From positions 1 through 58,091 of the IMG/VR virus record IMGVR_UViG_3300032282_000782: a stretch of 58,091 bases of DNA. One strand, 5' to 3'. Positions 2,360-27,193 of this stretch are shown here, piece by piece; within the stretch, counting starts at the first letter, position 1, and every line of letters begins with the position of its first letter. Source of the stretch: a virus. The notes under the pieces are model-generated. The model was not told the DNA's origin, searched no databases, and was given only the letters and a program-made list of their open reading frames with translations. A program made the position numbers and the translations under genes.

Positions 2360-4942
2360 ATGGCTGTTGAACGCAATCCATTTGATAAGATCAATCCTGC
2401 TCAGATAAACATTATGATGCCTGAAGAACCAGTCATGGACGAAGAGACTGGTCAAGAGACTTCAATGGAGTACGATCCAGCAGACGGTAGCATCATCGTA
2501 GAGTTTATCCCACCAGAAGACGACAGGGACAAAACTCAGATCAAAGAGACAGAGGAAGAGTTCTACCGCAACTTAGTGGAAGACCTGGATGACAAGGATT
2601 TATCTAGTATTGCATCCCAAGTCTACGACAACTTCACAGCAGACAAAGACTCCCGTAGTGAGTGGGAGTCCATGTTTGAGAGAGGCTTTGACCTCTTAGG
2701 TCTTAAGCTCAAAGAAGCATCTGAGCCATTTGAGGGTGCCTGTACAGCAGTCCACCCAATCCTTATTGAGTCTGCCGTAAAGTTCCAGTCTAAAGCTATT
2801 CAAGAACTATTCCCACCTGCTGGACCAGTTAAGACCCAGCTAATTGGGAATGTAACTGCTGAGCGTATGCAGCAGGGTAACCGTGTCAAAGAGTTCATGA
2901 ACTATCAGTTAACTGATTTGATCCCTGAATACTTTGACGAAATGGAACGTATGTTGTTCCACCTACCTCTTATTGGCTCAGCCTTTAAGAAGATTTACTT
3001 TGATGCTGGTCTTAATCGTCCAGTAGCAGAGTTTGTGCCTATCGACCAGTTCTATATTTCTTATTACGCCACTGACCTGCGTCGGGCAGACCGCTACACT
3101 CACTTGATTTATAGAAGTCCTAATGAACTCCAGCGTGACATTGCTGCGGGAATGTACGTTGCAGATGATCTTCCAGACGCAGGTGTCCCAACCATCACAA
3201 GCTTGGGCCAGAAGATCGACTCTATTTCTGGGCTATCACAGTCTTCTCAACAAGACCCCCAGTACGTTCTTCTAGAGCAGCATTGCTACCTAGACCTCCC
3301 AGAACGTTTCAGTGACGATAGTGGTCTGTCCCTTCCTTACATTGTTACATTGGAAGAGAAGTCCAGGAAGATTCTCTCTATCCGCCGTAACTACGACAAA
3401 GAGGACAAACGCCGTGAGAAGAAAATCTTCTTCACTCACTACCGCTTTGTCCCAGGCTTCGGCTTCTATGGCTTAGGTCTTATCCACTTCCTTGGTAACC
3501 TCACCATGACAGCCACAGCAGCTATGCGTAGCTTGGTTGACGCTGGACAGTTTGCCAACCTCCCAGGTGGCTTTAAGGCCAAAGGTGTTCGCATCGTTGG
3601 GGACAATGATCCCATTGCCCCAGGAGAGTGGAAGGAAGTTGAGGCTGTAGGTAACGACCTGTCCAAGATGATTATCCCCCTTCCGTACAAGGAGCCATCA
3701 CAGACACTGTTCCAGATGCTTGGGTTCATTCGTGATACTGCCCAGCACTTTGCTGACAGCACCGAGCAGGTCATTGCTGATGCAGCCAACTACGGTCCAG
3801 TTGGTACCACTATGGCTCTCCTGGAAGCATCTAGTAAATTCTTCTCTGCTATTCACAAGCGTCTGCACCATGCACAGAAGGAAGAGTTTAAGCTCCTTCG
3901 TCGTATCAACTTTGAGAACCTACCAGACGAAAGCTGCTGTGACATTCCAGGCTCTTCACTCATTATCCGCCGTGAAGACTTTGATGGCAGCATTGACATC
4001 ATTCCAGTATCTGATCCTAACATCCCATCCAATGCTCACCGCATGATGATGGCTCAGATGGCACTACAGTTAGCACAGACAAGTCCTCCAGGTATGTTCA
4101 ACGTGGAAGAGTTGAACCGTACCATTCTCATGTCCGCAAACATCCCGAACTTAGACCTTATCATGCCCCGCAAACCAGAGGTGGTCCCGCTTGACCCAAT
4201 CTCTGATATTGCCGCTGCAAGTAAGGGTCTTCCAATCAAGGCATTCGTTGGTCAGAACCACGACGCCCATATACAGGCTAAGACGGCCTTCATGTCTGAT
4301 CCTGCTAACGGTGCCAACCCCATGATGCAACGCATCGCTCCAGTGCTTGAAGCCAACATGCAGGAGCATTTGGTTATGAAGTACCAAGAGCAGGTGAATG
4401 GTGTTGCTCAGCAGATGATTCAAGCCAAACAAGCTATGGACGAACAGCAGGGTGTCGCTATGCAGCCACCAGATAAGGGTACCATTGAGATGGTGCTTGC
4501 AATGGCGGCACAGCAGGTTGCACAGGCTAACGCACAGATCGCTGCCGGTAAGGGGGCAATGACACCAGAGGCACAGATGGTGCAGCTTGAAGCACAGCGC
4601 CTACGGATTGAACAAGCCAAGACACAGGCTCTCATTGCTAAGAACGCAGTTGATGCTGCCATGAAGAACCGTGAGCTTGACATCAGGACAGCCCAGCTTC
4701 GTGCAGACTCCATGACTTCTGGCATTGAGATTTCAACTAAAGCACAGAACGACGAAGCTAACCGGGACACCAAGAAAGCTATTGCTGCCTTGGACGCAAT
4801 CATGGGCTTGCTAGAGACAAAGGAAATCAGTAGCCACCAGAAGCAAATGAAAGCTGCTGACATGGTTACCAAGTTTGCTCAAGAGGGTAACAAACATGCT
4901 CTAGCTTCTGCTAAGATGCCTAAGGGGCCAGTGCAAGAGTAA
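2360..4942 (+). CDS. Portal protein
   Basis: Dodecameric portal at the capsid vertex through which DNA passes; identified by similarity to large P22-type podoviral portals and by position directly after TerL. At 860 aa it is at the long end of the family. The N-terminal 60 residues are acidic. The core (about 80-600) carries segments such as FEGACTAVHPILIES and FHLPLIGSAFKK, typical of podoviral portals. Residues 640-840 are Gln/Ala-rich and predicted by eye to be coiled coil, like the barrel of P22 gp1. ATG start 48 bp after the TerL stop. Confidence 0.85.
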   Translation: MAVERNPFDKINPAQINIMMPEEPVMDEETGQETSMEYDPADGSIIVEFIPPEDDRDKTQIKETEEEFYRNLVEDLDDKDLSSIASQVYDNFTADKDSRSEWESMFERGFDLLGLKLKEASEPFEGACTAVHPILIESAVKFQSKAIQELFPPAGPVKTQLIGNVTAERMQQGNRVKEFMNYQLTDLIPEYFDEMERMLFHLPLIGSAFKKIYFDAGLNRPVAEFVPIDQFYISYYATDLRRADRYTHLIYRSPNELQRDIAAGMYVADDLPDAGVPTITSLGQKIDSISGLSQSSQQDPQYVLLEQHCYLDLPERFSDDSGLSLPYIVTLEEKSRKILSIRRNYDKEDKRREKKIFFTHYRFVPGFGFYGLGLIHFLGNLTMTATAAMRSLVDAGQFANLPGGFKAKGVRIVGDNDPIAPGEWKEVEAVGNDLSKMIIPLPYKEPSQTLFQMLGFIRDTAQHFADSTEQVIADAANYGPVGTTMALLEASSKFFSAIHKRLHHAQKEEFKLLRRINFENLPDESCCDIPGSSLIIRREDFDGSIDIIPVSDPNIPSNAHRMMMAQMALQLAQTSPPGMFNVEELNRTILMSANIPNLDLIMPRKPEVVPLDPISDIAAASKGLPIKAFVGQNHDAHIQAKTAFMSDPANGANPMMQRIAPVLEANMQEHLVMKYQEQVNGVAQQMIQAKQAMDEQQGVAMQPPDKGTIEMVLAMAAQQVAQANAQIAAGKGAMTPEAQMVQLEAQRLRIEQAKTQALIAKNAVDAAMKNRELDIRTAQLRADSMTSGIEISTKAQNDEANRDTKKAIAALDAIMGLLETKEISSHQKQMKAADMVTKFAQEGNKHALASAKMPKGPVQE

Positions 4943-8047: not shown

Positions 8048-8992
8048 ATGGCTATTAATCGTTCTGCTATTGCCAAAGAACTGCTCCCAGGTCTTAATGC
8101 CATCTTCGGTGTTGAGTATGGTAGCGTTGACGACGAACATCTTGCTCTTTACGCAGTTGAAAACTCAGACCGCGCATTTGAGGAAGAGGTTCTATTCACC
8201 GGCTTTGGTACAGCCCCCACAAAGACTGAAGGCGCTGCCGTTCAGTATGATGACGCATCAGAAGGCTACACCGCCCGTTACACAATGGAAACGGTAGCTC
8301 TTGCGTTTGCCATCACTGAAGAGTCAATGGAAGACAACCTCTACGACACATTTGCTAAACTACGTGCAAAAGGTCTTGCCCGTGCAATGGCAAACACCAA
8401 GCAAGTTAAAGCTGCTGACGTTTTCAACAACGGCTTCAGCACTAGCTATCTTGGTGGTGACGGTGCTGCACTATTCAGTGCATCTCACCCCACTGTAGGT
8501 GCTGGTAACTTGTCCAACACACTAGGCGCAACTGACTTCTCAGAAGCAGCCCTTGAGACTGGTTTGATCGCTATTGCACGTATGGTAGATGATCGTGGTA
8601 TTCTTATCGGCCTACAAGCTGATTCAATCCACGTTCCTCCTGATCTAGCATTCGTTGCTGACGAAGTACTACACTCTTCACTCAGCACGAAGCTTCAGAC
8701 GGCTGCTATCTACTCAGGTGCAACTGGTGTCAGCAACCTTAACAACCTAAACCCAATTAAGAACCAAGGTTTGGTTCCTGGTGGGTTCAATGTTAACCGT
8801 CGCTTCACTGACACTAATGCTTGGTTCATTAAAACCGACTGCCCCAACGGTGCAAAGATGTTTGTTCGCGCACCTCTCCAAACCAAGATGGAGCCAGACT
8901 TTGACACAGGTAACCTTCGCTTCAAGTCACGCGAACGTTATGCCTTTGGCTGGTCTGACTGGCGTGGGTTCTTCGGTTCTTCAGGCGCATAA
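8048..8992 (+). CDS. Major capsid protein
   Basis: 314-aa protein resembling the Mu gpT family of HK97-fold capsid proteins. Features are an N-terminal helix, a region with ITEESMEDNLYDTF and KALARAMAN-type helices (about 95-125), the ALFSASHPT loop (about 141), a P-domain, and a Trp-rich ending (FGWSDWRGFFGSSGA). A strong GGGGAGAC ribosome site sits 8 nt before ATG. A hairpin terminator follows 31 bp after the stop, consistent with a highly expressed transcript ending here. Confidence 0.88.
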   Translation: MAINRSAIAKELLPGLNAIFGVEYGSVDDEHLALYAVENSDRAFEEEVLFTGFGTAPTKTEGAAVQYDDASEGYTARYTMETVALAFAITEESMEDNLYDTFAKLRAKGLARAMANTKQVKAADVFNNGFSTSYLGGDGAALFSASHPTVGAGNLSNTLGATDFSEAALETGLIAIARMVDDRGILIGLQADSIHVPPDLAFVADEVLHSSLSTKLQTAAIYSGATGVSNLNNLNPIKNQGLVPGGFNVNRRFTDTNAWFIKTDCPNGAKMFVRAPLQTKMEPDFDTGNLRFKSRERYAFGWSDWRGFFGSSGA

Positions 8993-9124: not shown

Positions 9125-9433
9125 ATGACACAGACTACCCTCCGACAAGGATTCGTTACAGGCAGCGGCGCTGTCTTAGATGTGACATCTAACGTCACTG
9201 TTGAGAATACCCGTGTACACGCTATTGCAGCATCTGGTATCGGTACATTCCTTATTACAGGTACTTCAGTTGGCCCTTACGGAACTAAGGGTAGCAACAT
9301 TAAGTTCGTCCTGACTACAGCCATTGACCAGCAGTACTTGGACTTTGGGGGCACCTTAGGTGTCCGTATGGATGGTATTGTAAAGGTATCTGCCCCAACA
9401 TCAGCAGCGACTGTAGCCGTCTTCTATGGCTAA
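9125..9433 (+). CDS. Small beta-rich structural protein
   Basis: 102-aa Val/Thr/Gly-rich protein, probably a beta-sandwich, overlapping the start of the first adaptor gene by 8 bp. No recognised family. It could be a head-decoration or head-completion protein given its size and its place between capsid and adaptor. AAAGGATTACCC lies upstream of ATG and a good promoter lies 42 bp upstream. Confidence 0.6.
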   Translation: MTQTTLRQGFVTGSGAVLDVTSNVTVENTRVHAIAASGIGTFLITGTSVGPYGTKGSNIKFVLTTAIDQQYLDFGGTLGVRMDGIVKVSAPTSAATVAVFYG

Positions 9434-10082
9434 TTACAGTGGCCTAGTTGACGACCTGATAGCTGCGACTGAGAACACCAGCACAGAGTTCCTTAGCTAT
9501 GTCCCCAATATGGTTAACAGGGCTGAAGAGCGTCTAGTTAAAGACCTAGACGACTACGGTTTGGTAACGTACACCTCAGTGGCTGTATCAATCAACAACA
9601 ACCTAATGACGCTCCCAACCGGAACCCGTGTAGTCAAGAACTTCCTAATTGAAGCCAGTGGTTCTAAAGTTAACATGCTGTTAAGGACAGATGAGTTTAT
9701 CAATGATTATTGGCCAGTTAGTGCGTCTGTTGGGCAACCCAAGTATTATGCTAAGCGCGATAGCACCACTATCCTTATTGCTCCAACACCAGATGCTACC
9801 TATAATGGGCGTGTTGTCCATGTTTCCAGACCTACTACCTTAAGTTCTGTATCAGAGACAAACTACTTTACTGACCTCTGTTACGATCTCCTGTTCTACG
9901 GCTGCATGATTGAAGCTGCTCTGTTCCAGAAAGACTTCCAACTAGCTAGTCTTTACGAACAGAAGTATGGTGGCCTCCTAGAACTACAGCGTAACCAAGC
10001 CCGTAGAAGCCGTAGGGACGATATGCAAGCCCCTGCAAGCCCTGCTGGTGGTGATACTACCATTGTTGGACAACAGAACTAA
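9426..10082 (+). CDS. Head-tail adaptor protein
   Basis: 218-aa protein resembling podoviral adaptors (P22 gp4/SU10-type) that dock on the portal and extend the DNA channel. The N-terminal helices carry the typical MVNRAEERLVKDLDDYG segment (about 28-44). A beta region follows (MTLPTGTRVVKNFLI). The C-terminal helices include YGCMIEAALF and a basic tail (RNQARRSRRDDMQ). Overlaps the previous gene by 8 bp, implying coupled translation. Confidence 0.7.
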   Translation: MANYSGLVDDLIAATENTSTEFLSYVPNMVNRAEERLVKDLDDYGLVTYTSVAVSINNNLMTLPTGTRVVKNFLIEASGSKVNMLLRTDEFINDYWPVSASVGQPKYYAKRDSTTILIAPTPDATYNGRVVHVSRPTTLSSVSETNYFTDLCYDLLFYGCMIEAALFQKDFQLASLYEQKYGGLLELQRNQARRSRRDDMQAPASPAGGDTTIVGQQN

Positions 10083-10121: not shown

Positions 10122-10403
10122 ATGGCTAAAGCACCAATGAAATATGAAGGCTCCAAGAAAGACATGAAAATGGATGCTATGATGGCTAAGAAAACAGGTA
10201 TGTCAAAGAAGGCTTGGGAGTCTTCACCTCAGGACAAATCAATGGATAAAGCTGGTCAAGCTGCCATGATGATGCGTAAGGGCGGCGGCAAGATGTCCAT
10301 AGGAGCCGCTAAGAAGGGTATGGGAGCAGAAAAGCGGGCTTCTGGTGGTAAGGTTGGTAGCCGTGGCGCTACTCAACGTGGCTTCGGCGCGGAGAAGCAC
10401 TAA
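10122..10403 (+). CDS. Lys/Met-rich small basic protein
   Basis: 93-aa protein, very rich in Lys, Met, Gly and Ala, with no membrane segment. It ends in RGATQRGFGAEKH, a variant of the tag shared by the next three genes. It overlaps the following start by one base (TAATG). Such short basic proteins follow the adaptor in other marine podoviruses as I recall; their role is unknown. Charge suggests DNA contact or packaging inside the head (inference). Confidence 0.65.
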   Translation: MAKAPMKYEGSKKDMKMDAMMAKKTGMSKKAWESSPQDKSMDKAGQAAMMMRKGGGKMSIGAAKKGMGAEKRASGGKVGSRGATQRGFGAEKH

Positions 10404-11086
10404 TGGCTGACACTGATACTCGCCCACAAGCTACACGTAATACAGCCGCTGAACGTCTGGCAACACGTAATAAGTATACGTCTCCTAAGGAAAATACTTC
10501 AACAGCGTCTTCTTCTAGCCGTGAGAAATCAACAAACGTTAATACTCTCCCACAAGCTACACGTAATACAGCCGCTAAACGTCTGGCAACACGTACTGGT
10601 AGTGCTATTAACACTGTAGATATTGTTGATTCTAAGGTAGGTAATGAGTATACGTCTCCTAAGGAGGATACTTCAACAGCGTCTTCTTCTAGCCGTGAGA
10701 AATCAACAGACGAAGGTATGGGTCCGTCAGTGTCTATGACAAGTCCTAAGGAGGATACTTCAACAGCGTCTTCTTCTAGCCGTGAGAAATCAACAGACGA
10801 AGGTATGGGTCCGTCAGTGTCTATGACATTAATGAAAATTAATAAAGGTGATACTCTTTCAGCTATTGCCAAACGTCATGGAACTACTGTTAAAGACCTC
10901 ATGGATGCTAACCCGTACATTAAAGACGCCAATAAGATTTATGCTGGAAAGTCTTTAACTCTAAAGAAGAAGCCGGAAGTGTCTCAGGATGGTTACAAGA
11001 AAGGTGGATCACTTCGTCGTTCAGGTGGTGGTGGTCTTGGTGTTGGTCAAGCTCTTCGGGGCTGGGGCGCAGTAAGGAAGAAATAA
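10403..11086 (+). CDS. LysM-domain protein with internal repeats and C-terminal tag
   Basis: 227 aa. Residues 1-140 are Ser/Thr/Lys-rich and made of repeated segments, including two identical 29-residue units (SPKEDTSTASSSSREKST...). Residues 143-190 are a LysM fold (INKGDTLSAIAKRHGTTVK ... YAGKSLTLKKK) that binds peptidoglycan-type glycans. The end, GGGGLGVGQALRGWGAVRKK, is the tag shared with neighbouring genes. There is no signal peptide, so the protein probably acts from the virion at the host wall during entry rather than being secreted. Start by TAATG overlap with the previous gene. Confidence 0.75.
   Translation: MADTDTRPQATRNTAAERLATRNKYTSPKENTSTASSSSREKSTNVNTLPQATRNTAAKRLATRTGSAINTVDIVDSKVGNEYTSPKEDTSTASSSSREKSTDEGMGPSVSMTSPKEDTSTASSSSREKSTDEGMGPSVSMTLMKINKGDTLSAIAKRHGTTVKDLMDANPYIKDANKIYAGKSLTLKKKPEVSQDGYKKGGSLRRSGGGGLGVGQALRGWGAVRKK
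10657..10830 (+). repeat. Exact 87-bp tandem duplication inside the LysM gene
   Basis: The 87-bp unit at 10657-10743 is repeated at 10744-10830 with essentially no base changes, adding 29 codons in frame. Related, older copies of the same segment occur at about 10423-10530 and 10549-10600. Near identity implies recent slippage or recombination, and copy number may vary between isolates. Confidence 0.85.
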
Positions 11087-11088
11087 TT

Positions 11089-11745
11089 ATGGCTGAGAGA
11101 ATTACAGACTCTATTCTAGACGTTAAACCATCCCGCAATCGTACTGCAAAAGTCCGTGACGATCTAGAGGAACGTCGTAAAGAGTTTGATGATAACTCAG
11201 ACACGGAGACTGGTAAGGCAGTCCAAGATAACGTAGCTGCTCTTCTACCCATAGGTAAGGCTTTGTTAGTTGGTAAACAAGCTGTATCAACAGGGCTTCG
11301 CGCCGTACACGGTGCAACTCCTAAAATTCAAGCATCAGCACGTGCTGCTATTGAAGAAGCAAAAGGAACTACACGGCGGGTTGGAAGAGGGAGCAGCTTA
11401 GCGCAGTACCCTGCTCCTGTAGGCCGTGGTAGGGGCGTTACGTTTACATCTAGAGCGGAACAAGCTGAAGGTGTAGCAGCACGTGAGTCAGCAGCAGAGG
11501 CAGCACCTTACGCCGCTATTGGTAGCGCAGCATCAGGGCACGCTCTACGTAACGATTCAGACAAGAAGGATAAAAAGGAAAAGAAAGAGAAGGGCAGTAC
11601 TCCTATTGACTTATCAGGAGAAGACCTGGATCAGTTAAAAGCAGACCTAAACAAGAAGAGTGGCGGCACGCTCCGTCGTTCAGGTGGTGGTGGTCTAGGT
11701 GTGGGTAAAGCTTTACGTGGCTACGGTGCAGTGAGGAGGAAATAA
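11089..11745 (+). CDS. Basic protein with shared C-terminal tag
   Basis: 218-aa Ala/Arg/Lys-rich protein of unknown function, starting 2 bp after the LysM gene. The middle (about 120-155) is Ala-rich, and a Lys/Asp-rich hinge (DKKDKKEKKEKG) is followed by a helix. It ends in LRRSGGGGLGVGKALRGYG plus AVRRK, nearly identical to the end of the preceding protein although the rest is unrelated. Probably a virion component, by context. Confidence 0.65.
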   Translation: MAERITDSILDVKPSRNRTAKVRDDLEERRKEFDDNSDTETGKAVQDNVAALLPIGKALLVGKQAVSTGLRAVHGATPKIQASARAAIEEAKGTTRRVGRGSSLAQYPAPVGRGRGVTFTSRAEQAEGVAARESAAEAAPYAAIGSAASGHALRNDSDKKDKKEKKEKGSTPIDLSGEDLDQLKADLNKKSGGTLRRSGGGGLGVGKALRGYGAVRRK

Positions 11746-11747
11746 TT

Positions 11748-12026
11748 ATGGCTGACAAATACCAAAACGATCACACGGGAGTTCAAAGATATATAGATGA
11801 AAGCAAGAAGATTGCTAGGGAGTCTATAGAAAAAGAAGAGCGTGGGCCTAATGCTCAGAAAGGTATGGGAACTATTGCTAAATGGCTTGACGACACACGG
11901 AATACTGTTCGTGATAAGTTGGGTCTAAACGACAAGGATGATGGCACTGTTATCAACAAAGCAAAGGGTGGCGGCTTAGGTTGTGGCGCTGCCATGAGGG
12001 GCTTCGGAGCAGTACGTAAAAAGTAA
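11748..12026 (+). CDS. Small basic protein with shared C-terminal tag
   Basis: 92-aa charged helical protein of unknown function, 2 bp after its neighbour. It ends in GGGLGCGAAMRGFGAVRKK, the third clear copy of the tag in consecutive genes. The final bases TAATG also start the next short gene. No domain recognised. Confidence 0.65.
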   Translation: MADKYQNDHTGVQRYIDESKKIARESIEKEERGPNAQKGMGTIAKWLDDTRNTVRDKLGLNDKDDGTVINKAKGGGLGCGAAMRGFGAVRKK

Positions 12027-12136
12027 TGCCAATCAGTAGGTCCAACACAAGTACGCAGATCAGCCGTCCTCCTATGAAAAAGAAGATGGCTGGTACTGTA
12101 CAACCCAAGAAGAAGCCAAAAGCTACAAAGAAGTAA
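12026..12136 (+). CDS. 36-residue Lys-rich peptide
   Basis: A short frame starting on the TAATG overlap with the previous stop and ending at TAA 12134-12136, 11 bp before the next gene. It encodes MPISRSNTSTQIS followed by a Pro/Lys-rich tail ending KPKATKK. The start resembles tiny basic proteins (MPISR...QIS) found at this place in marine phages, from memory. The overlap, composition and exact filling of the gap support a real gene. Confidence 0.6.
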   Translation: MPISRSNTSTQISRPPMKKKMAGTVQPKKKPKATKK

Positions 12137-12147
12137 GAGAGGGACGT

Positions 12148-12498
12148 ATGGCTTTAACAGAACAGCAAAAGAACAAGCTAAAGAAGAACGGCTTGTCCGG
12201 TTTAAACAAACCAAAGAACACTCCTTCTCACCCGACTAAGAAGGGTGTTGTTGCTGTTAAAGGCGCTAGTGGTGACTCCATAAAGATCATCCGCTTCGGT
12301 GACCAGAACATGGGACATAACTACTCTCCTGAAGCACGTAAGTCATTTAAAGCCCGTCATGGTGCTAACATTGCTAAAGGTCCATCTAGCGCAGCTTACT
12401 GGGCTAACAAGCAGTACTGGTCAGGTCCTTCTGGGCCAAAGAAGATGCCACCTAAATCTCAGAAAAGTACTAAAGGTTTAGGCTCTCCTAAGAAGTAG
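12148..12498 (+). CDS. Conserved basic phage protein (SFKARH..AAYWANK type)
   Basis: 116-aa Lys/Pro-rich protein. The motifs LNKPKNTPSHPTKK, IKIIRFGDQ and SFKARHGANIAKGPSSAAYW followed by ANKQYW match a conserved small-protein family in marine phages, including cyanophages, as I recall, probably a domain of unknown function. It closes the cluster of small basic proteins. No catalytic signature is evident; it may bind DNA in the virion. Confidence 0.7.
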   Translation: MALTEQQKNKLKKNGLSGLNKPKNTPSHPTKKGVVAVKGASGDSIKIIRFGDQNMGHNYSPEARKSFKARHGANIAKGPSSAAYWANKQYWSGPSGPKKMPPKSQKSTKGLGSPKK

Positions 12499-12558: not shown

Positions 12559-13233
12559 ATGGCTACTTCTGGTACATACTCTTTTGCGTTGGACATAGAT
12601 GAAGTCATTCAAGAAGCCCTTGAGATGATTGGTGGTGAGCAGACATTAGGTAATGACCCTAAATCTGCCCGTAGATCAATCAATTTGATGCTCCAGGACT
12701 GGCAAAACAGGGGTATTCTCCTCTGGACAAGCAACACAACCATTGTTTCATTGACCACAAGTGTAACTTCCTACGACCTAAACGCCAATATCGTTGATGT
12801 TACGGACGCTGTGTTAACCAGAAGTGGCACGGATATTGCACTAACACGTATTTCAATGGAGGAATACCTCCGAATCCCCCGTAAAAGCCAAACTGGACGC
12901 CCTTCTCAGTTTGCTATTAGGCGCGAACAGGACAATCCAACACTATTCCTGTGGCCTATCCCTATTAATAGCACAGATACTCTTAAAATTGAGCGTGTTA
13001 AGTTCATGCAGGACGTAAATAAGTCTGCTGGGCAGAATGCAGACATCAGCCGTAGGTTTTTACCGGCATTTACTGCTGGTTTAGCCCATCAGATGGCTTG
13101 GAAGCGCCCTGGAGTAGAGGGTGGACGTATTTCAGCCCTTAAACAAGAGTATGAACTACTCCTTGCACGGGCTATGGACGAAGATAGGGAGCGGGCAAGC
13201 ATTAAGATCGTTCCTAAACTCAACAGGGCTTAG
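12559..13233 (+). CDS. Second head-tail adaptor/connector protein
   Basis: 224-aa protein with the podoviral adaptor pattern. Helices come first (IDEVIQEALEMIGGE, RRSINLMLQDWQNRG at about 37-51). A beta domain starts at SVTSYDLNANIVDVTDAVL. The C-terminal helical tail includes AFTAGLAHQMAWKRP. It resembles P22 gp4-like or tail-completion proteins and probably sits below the first adaptor. AGGAC lies before ATG. Confidence 0.65.
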   Translation: MATSGTYSFALDIDEVIQEALEMIGGEQTLGNDPKSARRSINLMLQDWQNRGILLWTSNTTIVSLTTSVTSYDLNANIVDVTDAVLTRSGTDIALTRISMEEYLRIPRKSQTGRPSQFAIRREQDNPTLFLWPIPINSTDTLKIERVKFMQDVNKSAGQNADISRRFLPAFTAGLAHQMAWKRPGVEGGRISALKQEYELLLARAMDEDRERASIKIVPKLNRA

Positions 13234-24769: not shown

Positions 24770-27193
24770 ATGGTCTATGTTAAATACATTCTAGCCAGCC
24801 TGTCCGTCAAGGAGAAGGTTGAACTATTCAAACGGCTATATGAAGAAGTAGCTGGAATGGGTATTAATGGGGACACTGAGCTAGCCCATATTAACAAGCA
24901 CGAAGGTGCCATCTTAAAGATGATGGGTGGTTCCGGTACCATCAACGAAGCGACTGGTCTTATCCAGTACTTCGGCGGTAGCCCTCCTCCCCCTCCCGCT
25001 GCCTCTAGTACTGTAACTCAACAGGCTACAATCCCTGATGAAATGAAGCCGTACATCACGGATGTACTTACTCAGGCACAGGCACTAAACAAGCAGCGTA
25101 CTGAGGAAGGCTACCAGCCATACCAGGGTGCCCAGATTGCTGACTTCCAACCTGAACAGACACAGGCTCAGCAAGGCATCGCTGGTCTAGTTGGCTCTGG
25201 ACAGCAGTACTTCGATAAGGCTGCTAACCTAACAGAACAGGCGGGTCAGGCTCCTACAGCAGAAGCCTTGCAGTCGTACATGTCCCCCTACATGCAGAAC
25301 GTTGTGGACATTCAGAAGCGTGAGGCAATGCGTCAGGGTGACGTAGCTGCACAGGGACAGGCTTACGGAGCCACACAGGTTGGTGCCTTTGGTGGTAGCC
25401 GTGATGCTATCGTACAGGCTGAGAATGAACGTAATCAGCAGACACTACTTAACGATATTCAAGCTAAAGGGAGTGCTGCTGCTTATGCAGACGCTCAGCA
25501 ACAGTATGCCGCACAACAGAAGAATGCTCTTGCAGCAGGTGCCCAGTATGGTCAGCTAGGGACAGCAGTTCCTGGTCAGGCTATGAAAGAGTTTGGTGCT
25601 TTGGAGTCAGTTGGTGCCGCTAAGCAACAGCAGGAACAACAGGCTCTTAACCTTGCTAAGCAGCAGTTCATTCAGGAACAGACATTCCCTGAGGCTAACT
25701 TACAGCAGTACTCTTCTATTATTCGTGGGTACAACCTTCCCCCTAACACCTATCAGTCAGCGCAGACAACCACTCCTGCTCCTTCATACATGCAGCAGAT
25801 CGCTGGCTTGGGTATGGCAGGTGCTGGTATTGCTGGTGCCTTTGGTGGGTTTAAGGGTGCTAAGGAAGGAGGCTTAGTTGGTTTGGCTAAGGGTGGTAAA
25901 GTCCTGAAACGTGAAACAGGTGGTTTAGCAAGCGAAGCTACTGACTTATCTATAAAGACAGACGACGAATTACGGAAGATGCTAGCAGCATCTGAACTAC
26001 CTATACCATCAGTTCAAGAGGAGTTATCTAAACGCCCTTCCGCCGCGCCCCTTAAGGGGACAACTTTAATTGATCGCATAAACAACTCAGTACGAAATGC
26101 TTCTGGTCTTGGAAGGGATGTTTCAAAGGTTGGGGATGCTGTAGGCTCAGGGTTATCTGGAGCATACGACTATGTTATTAAAAGACCAGTAAAGTACATT
26201 ACGGGGTATCCTCAGGATTCTGAGCAAGCTCCTGCTGCACCACCTAAGAAAGAAGTAGGAGCGCCTACCCAGACTCCCCCCGCACTTACAGCGCCTCCAG
26301 TTAAGGAGCCTGATGTAGCGGAGGAGAAGCCAGCAGCTAAAACACTTTCACCACGTGCTGTTGTAGATACAACCAAGTGGGATGACATGCTTGCTAACGT
26401 AGGTAAGAATGACGACGCATCCACTACGGAGCTTAACAACTTACGTACTGACCTTGCACTTAAACTAGACGAAGCTTCTGAGAAGAAGAAGGGTATCTTG
26501 GGTAAGCGTCAAGAAGAACTTGGTAAGCAGAAGTGGATGGCGCTTGCTGAGATGGGAGCTTCTGTACTTGCTCAGCCAGGAGGTCAGACATTCCTTCAAT
26601 CTATGGGTAGGGGTGTTAAGGAGTCTGGTATTATTGGTACACTTGCCAAGATTGGTGATAAGGCTTCTGACATTGAGACTGATTTAGCTGAGATGGACAC
26701 TAAGACCATGATGGCTAAGTACGGTCTAAAGAAGGATCAGATTGCTGATATTAAGGATCAGAAAAAGCTTGATATTGAACGCATGAAAGCAATCTCTGAA
26801 GGTAAGTACCGTGAAGAGATGATTGGTGTTTATAAGGATAAAAATGAGACTGATGCGGAGAAGGCGGGGCTAATTGCAAAAGCCGCTGAACAAAGCTTAG
26901 CTGCACGTATTGAAAACAATCGTGCAACACAGGCTAATAGAGCGCTTGTACTGGAGAACGTTCAATTCAAAGACGACGCTAAAGCTGCTGTAGATATGCA
27001 GAAACTCAAGGACGGCGATGGTTTAAGGTACAAGGAGGATATTGCGGAAGCACTCCAAGCCGTCCCGCCCAGCAAAAAGCAGACAATAGCCTACTTAAAC
27101 GGACTGTACAACGCAGCTAAACCGCGACCTGCTGAGAAAAAAAATATTGGTGGGTTAATTAAACCAAGGGGTATGGCTGGGGAAGCAATTTAA
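24770..27193 (+). CDS. Large internal virion protein
   Basis: 807-aa Gln/Ala/Lys-rich, mostly helical protein. Near the N-terminus it repeats the GDTELAHINKHEG module present twice in the 817-aa protein. Residues about 75-330 are rich in Gln-Ala helices (QAQALNKQRTEEGYQPY). A short hydrophobic Gly/Ala segment lies at about 345-362 (GLGMAGAGIAGAFGG). The Lys-rich C-terminal half is likely coiled coil. Size, composition and position match ejected core proteins of podoviruses; no enzymatic domain was recognised. Confidence 0.65.
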   Translation: MVYVKYILASLSVKEKVELFKRLYEEVAGMGINGDTELAHINKHEGAILKMMGGSGTINEATGLIQYFGGSPPPPPAASSTVTQQATIPDEMKPYITDVLTQAQALNKQRTEEGYQPYQGAQIADFQPEQTQAQQGIAGLVGSGQQYFDKAANLTEQAGQAPTAEALQSYMSPYMQNVVDIQKREAMRQGDVAAQGQAYGATQVGAFGGSRDAIVQAENERNQQTLLNDIQAKGSAAAYADAQQQYAAQQKNALAAGAQYGQLGTAVPGQAMKEFGALESVGAAKQQQEQQALNLAKQQFIQEQTFPEANLQQYSSIIRGYNLPPNTYQSAQTTTPAPSYMQQIAGLGMAGAGIAGAFGGFKGAKEGGLVGLAKGGKVLKRETGGLASEATDLSIKTDDELRKMLAASELPIPSVQEELSKRPSAAPLKGTTLIDRINNSVRNASGLGRDVSKVGDAVGSGLSGAYDYVIKRPVKYITGYPQDSEQAPAAPPKKEVGAPTQTPPALTAPPVKEPDVAEEKPAAKTLSPRAVVDTTKWDDMLANVGKNDDASTTELNNLRTDLALKLDEASEKKKGILGKRQEELGKQKWMALAEMGASVLAQPGGQTFLQSMGRGVKESGIIGTLAKIGDKASDIETDLAEMDTKTMMAKYGLKKDQIADIKDQKKLDIERMKAISEGKYREEMIGVYKDKNETDAEKAGLIAKAAEQSLAARIENNRATQANRALVLENVQFKDDAKAAVDMQKLKDGDGLRYKEDIAEALQAVPPSKKQTIAYLNGLYNAAKPRPAEKKNIGGLIKPRGMAGEAI

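Follow-up and report, generated by a model that had tools for sequence, protein, structure and literature searches.

A conserved C-terminal peptide on unrelated small proteins encoded between two adaptor genes of aquatic phages, a candidate docking tag

Aquatic phages carry small genes between their head and tail genes, most of them without an assigned function, and the locus described here raises the question of why four such genes in a row, encoding otherwise dissimilar proteins, should end in a common peptide. The window, meaning the whole stretch of DNA that was analyzed, is an IMG/VR virus record of 58,091 bases. Its head module runs in the order terminase (725), portal (2360), GroES-like protein (5179), a phrog_28737 protein without assigned function (5679), major capsid protein (8048), and two SU10-type adaptors (9426 and 12559). 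The adaptor copies scored 70.3 and 41.6 bits against the Pfam SU10_adaptor family PF24175 (cut-off 27) and lie next to an HK97-type capsid gene (PF25209), which places the virus with the SU10-adaptor phages. Searched with phmmer, the capsid and adaptor sequences revealed no relative of solved structure. The four ORFs lie head to tail between the two adaptor genes, at 10122-12026, within the following features.

2360..4942, + strand: portal protein with the N-terminus MAVERNPFDKI, which corresponds to ERNPY, a sister C-terminal tag in relatives
8048..8992, + strand: major capsid protein (Pfam PF25209, E = 2.6e-14), the marker for relatives
9426..10082, + strand: SU10-type adaptor 1 (Pfam PF24175, E = 3.9e-19), upstream border of the tagged interval
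10122..10403, + strand: tagged protein 1, 93 aa, basic
10278..10334, + strand: internal degenerate tag copy in protein 1, SIGAAKKGMGAEK / KGGGKMSIGAAKKGMGAEK, a tag-matrix match
10341..10400, + strand: C-terminal tag 1, SGGKVGSRGATQRGFGAEKH
10403..11086, + strand: tagged protein 2, 227 aa, LysM domain and tag
10835..10963, + strand: LysM domain, aa 145-187 of protein 2 (predicted with pLDDT about 90; tag about 50)
11003..11083, + strand: C-terminal tag 2, GGSLRRSGGGGLGVGQALRGWGAVRKK
11089..11745, + strand: tagged protein 3, 218 aa, no recognized domain
11662..11742, + strand: C-terminal tag 3, GGTLRRSGGGGLGVGKALRGYGAVRRK
11748..12026, + strand: tagged protein 4, 92 aa
11967..12023, + strand: C-terminal tag 4, GGGLGCGAAMRGFGAVRKK
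12559..13233, + strand: SU10-type adaptor 2 (Pfam PF24175, E = 2.5e-10), downstream border of the tagged interval

The ends follow the consensus GG-x-V/L...G[CV]GxAxRG[YFWG]GAVRKK, and RGxG[AC] was found near the C-terminus of these four ORFs and of no other ORF in the window. A sequence-only reading had claimed that the four proteins share a C-terminal peptide of 15 to 20 residues on unrelated bodies, and the ORFs and their ends were as it described. The C-terminal 32-mers of proteins 2 to 4 gave BLOSUM62 local scores of 128, 92, and 84 (z of 15.3, 12.9, and 10.8) that none of 5000 composition-preserving shuffles reached. Tag 1 was weaker, with z of 3.9 to 4.8 against the other tags and scores reached by 1 to 10 of 5000 shuffles. 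The bodies did not align (z of -0.7 to 0.7 against shuffles). Some details required amendment: the ends do align, but the conserved stretch covers 19 to 29 residues when the GG-x-[VL] lead-in is included; the ending given was a near match, as the protein ending at 11745 finishes in GAVRRK; and the bodies, while mutually unrelated, include the recognizable LysM domain of protein 2 (Pfam PF01476, E = 1.2e-12, 48.0 bits against a cut-off of 20.9). In the AlphaFold2 model of protein 2 the LysM domain alone folds and the tag is left disordered, as expected for a linear motif. The body of protein 2 (10403-11086, + strand) also contains repeated TSPKEDTSTASSSSREKSTDEGMGPSVSMT units.

Relatives were retrieved using the capsid protein alone, which yielded 26 non-redundant loci with both adaptors, and all 26 had tagged ORFs between the adaptors. 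Within these loci the tag was present on 54 of 172 ORFs in the adaptor interval compared to 1 of 454 elsewhere, and the motif was 16-fold denser over the final 40 residues than in the protein interiors. Two scans of IMG/VR were made with degenerate tag DNA, no position being fixed, and returned 46 loci and at least 80 loci. The same head-module genes were present in 45 of the 46 loci of the first scan; among the matches listed for the second, the same head genes were found in 68 of the 77 newly added loci, and all 84 ORF instances lay at most 19 aa from the stop. As HMMER was insensitive on the 19-column tag, a tag matrix was applied instead to all collected ORFs, giving 188 C-terminal, 0 N-terminal, and 7 internal matches, compared to 5 in shuffled proteins. 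In part, the clustering simply reflects restriction of the tag to one viral clade. Similar endings in other marine phages, as mentioned in the sequence-only reading, are confirmed, and a low-complexity coincidence lacking conservation in relatives is excluded, the tag not being of low complexity. A clear tag was absent from the inspected regions of HTVC027P, CRP-901, QDWS535, and Caulobacter RW, isolates with at most about 50% capsid identity, so this capsid type does not generally need the tag. A 75-residue protein of phage DSL-LC04 (L135, 12016-12243) carries the tag motif N-terminally, beginning with MAGRGMGCATRGGGAV. Searched alone against PHROGs the tags matched no family, tblastn with the 29-residue tags gave no match in phage records, presumably owing to low-complexity filtering, and a PDB profile search gave chance matches only. 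Neither the motif nor shared C-terminal virion tags were described in PHROGs, Pfam, PDB, or the open-access literature that was searched.

The core of 180 distinct tags reads GxGxAx[RK]GxG, with C or V at position 2, mostly A at position 4, and A at position 5 in 179 of 180, in a set that was partly selected by pattern; in an unbiased set the core is still dominated by G, A, and M/L. The preceding GG is near-invariant in 63 aligned tagged proteins. A transmembrane-type explanation was considered and set aside, as only 5 of 65 tagged ORFs reach a Kyte-Doolittle value of 1.6.

The bodies that carry this peptide, referred to below as the RG tag, are diverse: 109 proteins fell into 39 clusters, and in an alignment of 63 representatives the mean column identity is 8%, with columns near-invariant in the tag alone. 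Tags on unrelated bodies are nonetheless more alike within a genome (72.5) than between genomes (49.9), a likeness reached by 0 of 2000 permutations and at least equal to that of tags whose bodies are related but belong to different genomes (67.1). Homologous bodies were also found with different tags. The body of L073 ends in an SYD tag, and its homologs in L092, L098, and L128 (40-50% identity over 123-192 aa, E of 1e-25 to 1e-29) end in the RG tag; likewise L099 has an HNRLY tag and its body relatives L116 and L247 the RG tag, and L074 has an SYD tag and its relatives L046, L177, and L201 the RG tag. Within-genome likeness and tag exchange between homologous bodies are, as far as the sequences tell, how an address label evolves; the likeness could also originate from recombination among tags, a point that counts against docking.

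The sister tags HNRLY (40 proteins in 24 body groups), SYD (10 proteins in 4 groups), and ERNPY (15 proteins in 6 groups) occur in the same phages as the RG tag, mostly behind a KKGG[KS][VI] lead-in. HNRLY is an exact end, often CSHNRLY or SGHNRLY and usually after GGKV, in L006, L007, L011, L020, L026, L099, and 24 other loci. Ends of the type SGDDVVRGCYD or TGGQVVDSSYD replace the RG tag on homologous bodies, and SYD-type loci are L057, L063, L066, L069, L072-L074, L079, L081, and L098. The ERNPY genes (L006, L008, L009, L012-L015, L038, L057, L093, L108, and L204) mostly abut the portal gene, and 0.1 such ends are expected by chance in 17,964 ORFs. ERNPY repeats the portal N-terminus, MA[TV]E[RK]NP[FYN], a form also seen in the portal of the window; no ERNPY-tagged protein was found in the window itself. 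This match is the best hint that the tags may dock where structural proteins dock. It is possible, and we propose it tentatively, that RG, HNRLY, ERNPY, and SYD form an exchangeable set of labels, each with its own site on the assembling particle; as one of them copies the portal N-terminus, the proteins so labeled would share the pocket of the portal arm. Two small ORFs of the window follow the tagged genes. A 36-residue protein without a tag, MPISRSNTSTQISRPPMKKKM (12026-12136), resembles by eye the N-termini of L125 7264-7614 (RG tag) and L020 8938-9102 (HNRLY tag), and 12148-12498 encodes a small basic protein of phrog_7595, the core of which recurs within phrog_220, a 1338-position profile annotated as minor head protein and DNA pilot.

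Adjacent genes, mosaic bodies, and homologous bodies with different tags are what would be seen at a modular recombination hotspot, where gene shuffling had produced the shared 3' ends, the common DNA was the crossover point, and the peptide was near-functionless. The codons argue against this. Identical residues in the tag pairs of the window are encoded by different codons at 9 of 24, 10 of 15, and 10 of 14 positions; over 78 within-genome tag pairs, identity at codon positions 1, 2, and 3 was 0.86, 0.86, and 0.51, and 301 of 648 codon pairs for identical residues differed. Divergence at third positions with first and second positions kept needs selection on the peptide. Agreement of the residues despite differing codons shows that the peptide is conserved as protein. 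A recent DNA duplication therefore cannot account for the whole of the pattern, and a DNA or RNA element cannot be its main cause. We regard the hotspot as highly improbable, and we give even less credence to the proposal that the 3' end is kept because it serves the following gene as a Shine-Dalgarno or coupling signal, which is disfavored for the core. The sequences AGGAAG (11075-11080) and AGGAGG (11734-11739) do lie 8 bases before the next ATG, inside RK and RR codons, so that the terminal R-K-K codons of two tagged genes double as Shine-Dalgarno-like sites; because of this resemblance the three terminal residues carry little weight by themselves as evidence for a peptide signal, and the rest of the tag is unaffected. 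Such an element accounts for only the last two to three residues, third positions have diverged, and the other tag classes finish in HNRLY, CYD, or ERNPYGDNRRLI.

A tail rich in cations and glycine can bind nucleic acid with no protein partner involved, which counts against docking, and a basic end rich in RG[YF]G and GG might hold the proteins on packaged DNA or phage RNA. Tags and bodies are indeed strongly basic (net charge per residue 0.139 for tagged proteins compared to 0.027 for all genes), and RG[YF]G resembles RGG-box sequences. However, the core has fixed small or hydrophobic positions such as the alanine at position 5, its C-terminal placement is strict, it is exchanged for HNRLY and SYD, which differ from it chemically, and tag similarity tracks the genome; we consider a nucleic-acid-binding tail unlikely. 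The double glycine of KKGGxV could alternatively be a cleavage site from which the C-terminal peptide is freed, in the manner of T4 internal peptides. The near-invariance of this GG, which precedes most ends in all four tag classes, favors such processing, but no prohead protease was recognized among the window proteins scanned, and a freed peptide leaves the need of unrelated bodies for it unexplained, making this very unlikely.

A sorting or binding signal, as had been suggested from the sequence alone, is thus the best reading of a peptide that is C-terminal, maintained at the protein level, common to unrelated bodies, and swapped between homologs. We think it probable that the peptide is a docking, or address, tag that recruits the proteins carrying it. 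Each protein would have a variable body that is basic and either largely disordered or made of a small domain; a flexible lead-in of lysine and glycine (KKGGxV) would follow, and then a 10-residue core, GxGxA-x-[RK]-G-[YFWG]-G, with a basic end. In each phage a single partner, most likely part of the prohead or of the portal/neck vertex, would read the tags of all these proteins, and several unrelated minor proteins would thereby be recruited into the particle during assembly. Some of these, for example the LysM protein, may then act on the cell envelope at DNA entry.

For a virion location, and for packaging into the capsid or docking on portal or scaffold as candidate functions, the support is indirect and comes from gene position, the portal-like sister tag, and the following observations. 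LysM was found in 7 of 63 tagged proteins. The tagged bodies of L058, L050, and L053 begin with a module of the phrog_22033 and phrog_25121 virion structural proteins, and the L058-type module also opens CBB_322, a protein that mass spectrometry identified in virions of CBB from 30 unique peptides (PMC5259590). The module, SKSxxQARMMAxAAHDPxFAKKVGxP, was seen in the small RG-type tagged proteins L058 911-1375, L050 103-762, and L053 6476-7189 and is common to jumbo-phage proteins of CBB (CBB_322), GAP32, 121Q, and 201phi2-1. In L162, L152, and L186 a tagged protein of 62-74 residues is encoded in a module of ejection-type proteins, its gene in L186 adjoining that of a phrog_4287 DNA ejection protein; in L188, which has relatives of the capsid and adaptors, the single pattern match sits in the ejection-gene module. 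Members of the phrog_4287 family were themselves without a tag, which counts against docking. Ejection proteins as carriers, suggested by the ORF at 24770-27193 of the window ending in GGLIKPRGMAGEAI, were rejected, as its homologs end differently.

A readable label of this kind would allow probable virion or ejected proteins to be listed from sequence alone, would indicate where on the head or neck docking takes place, and could be used to load foreign proteins into phage particles. The rapid gain and swapping of minor virion proteins by phages would also have a possible explanation; if the four tags do form a set of labels, addition of a label alone could yield new virion proteins.

The capsid targeting sequence of T4 brings several unrelated minor proteins into the prohead by means of one short terminal peptide, but it is N-terminal and is removed by the prohead protease. 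The RG tag would resemble it in serving prohead entry, and differs in being C-terminal, with 0 N-terminal matrix matches (one look-alike, in DSL-LC04) and with no protease recognized among the scanned proteins of the window. The targeting peptides of family 1 encapsulins (GSLGIGSLR, LTVGSLRR, GSLxIGSLK) are C-terminal behind a flexible stretch and bind the HK97-fold shell from the inside (PMC10960027). The RG tag is similarly C-terminal behind a flexible linker, and window tags 2 and 3 (GGLGVGxALRG) are faintly similar; however, the [IV]GSL core ([IL]GSL/TVGSL) is in none of the 180 distinct tags, most relatives read GCGAAMRG or similar, and there is no encapsulin shell. Because position or core motif fails, we place the RG tag under neither system. 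The HTVC023P-type pelagiphages and phages with SU10/Pam1-type adaptors share homologs of the capsid, portal, adaptor, and GroES genes; tag-like ends in diverged form occur in HTVC023P, the nearest isolate to have them, and clear RG tags in this group are rare, or shifted to the ejection-gene module as in L188. The P1 internal proteins DarA and Hdf line the inner capsid surface, contact DNA, and are ejected with it (PMC12810830). They are attached through folded domains and have no shared C-terminal peptide, but their role as internal proteins is one that the RG-tagged proteins, if located in the particle as we propose, may share.
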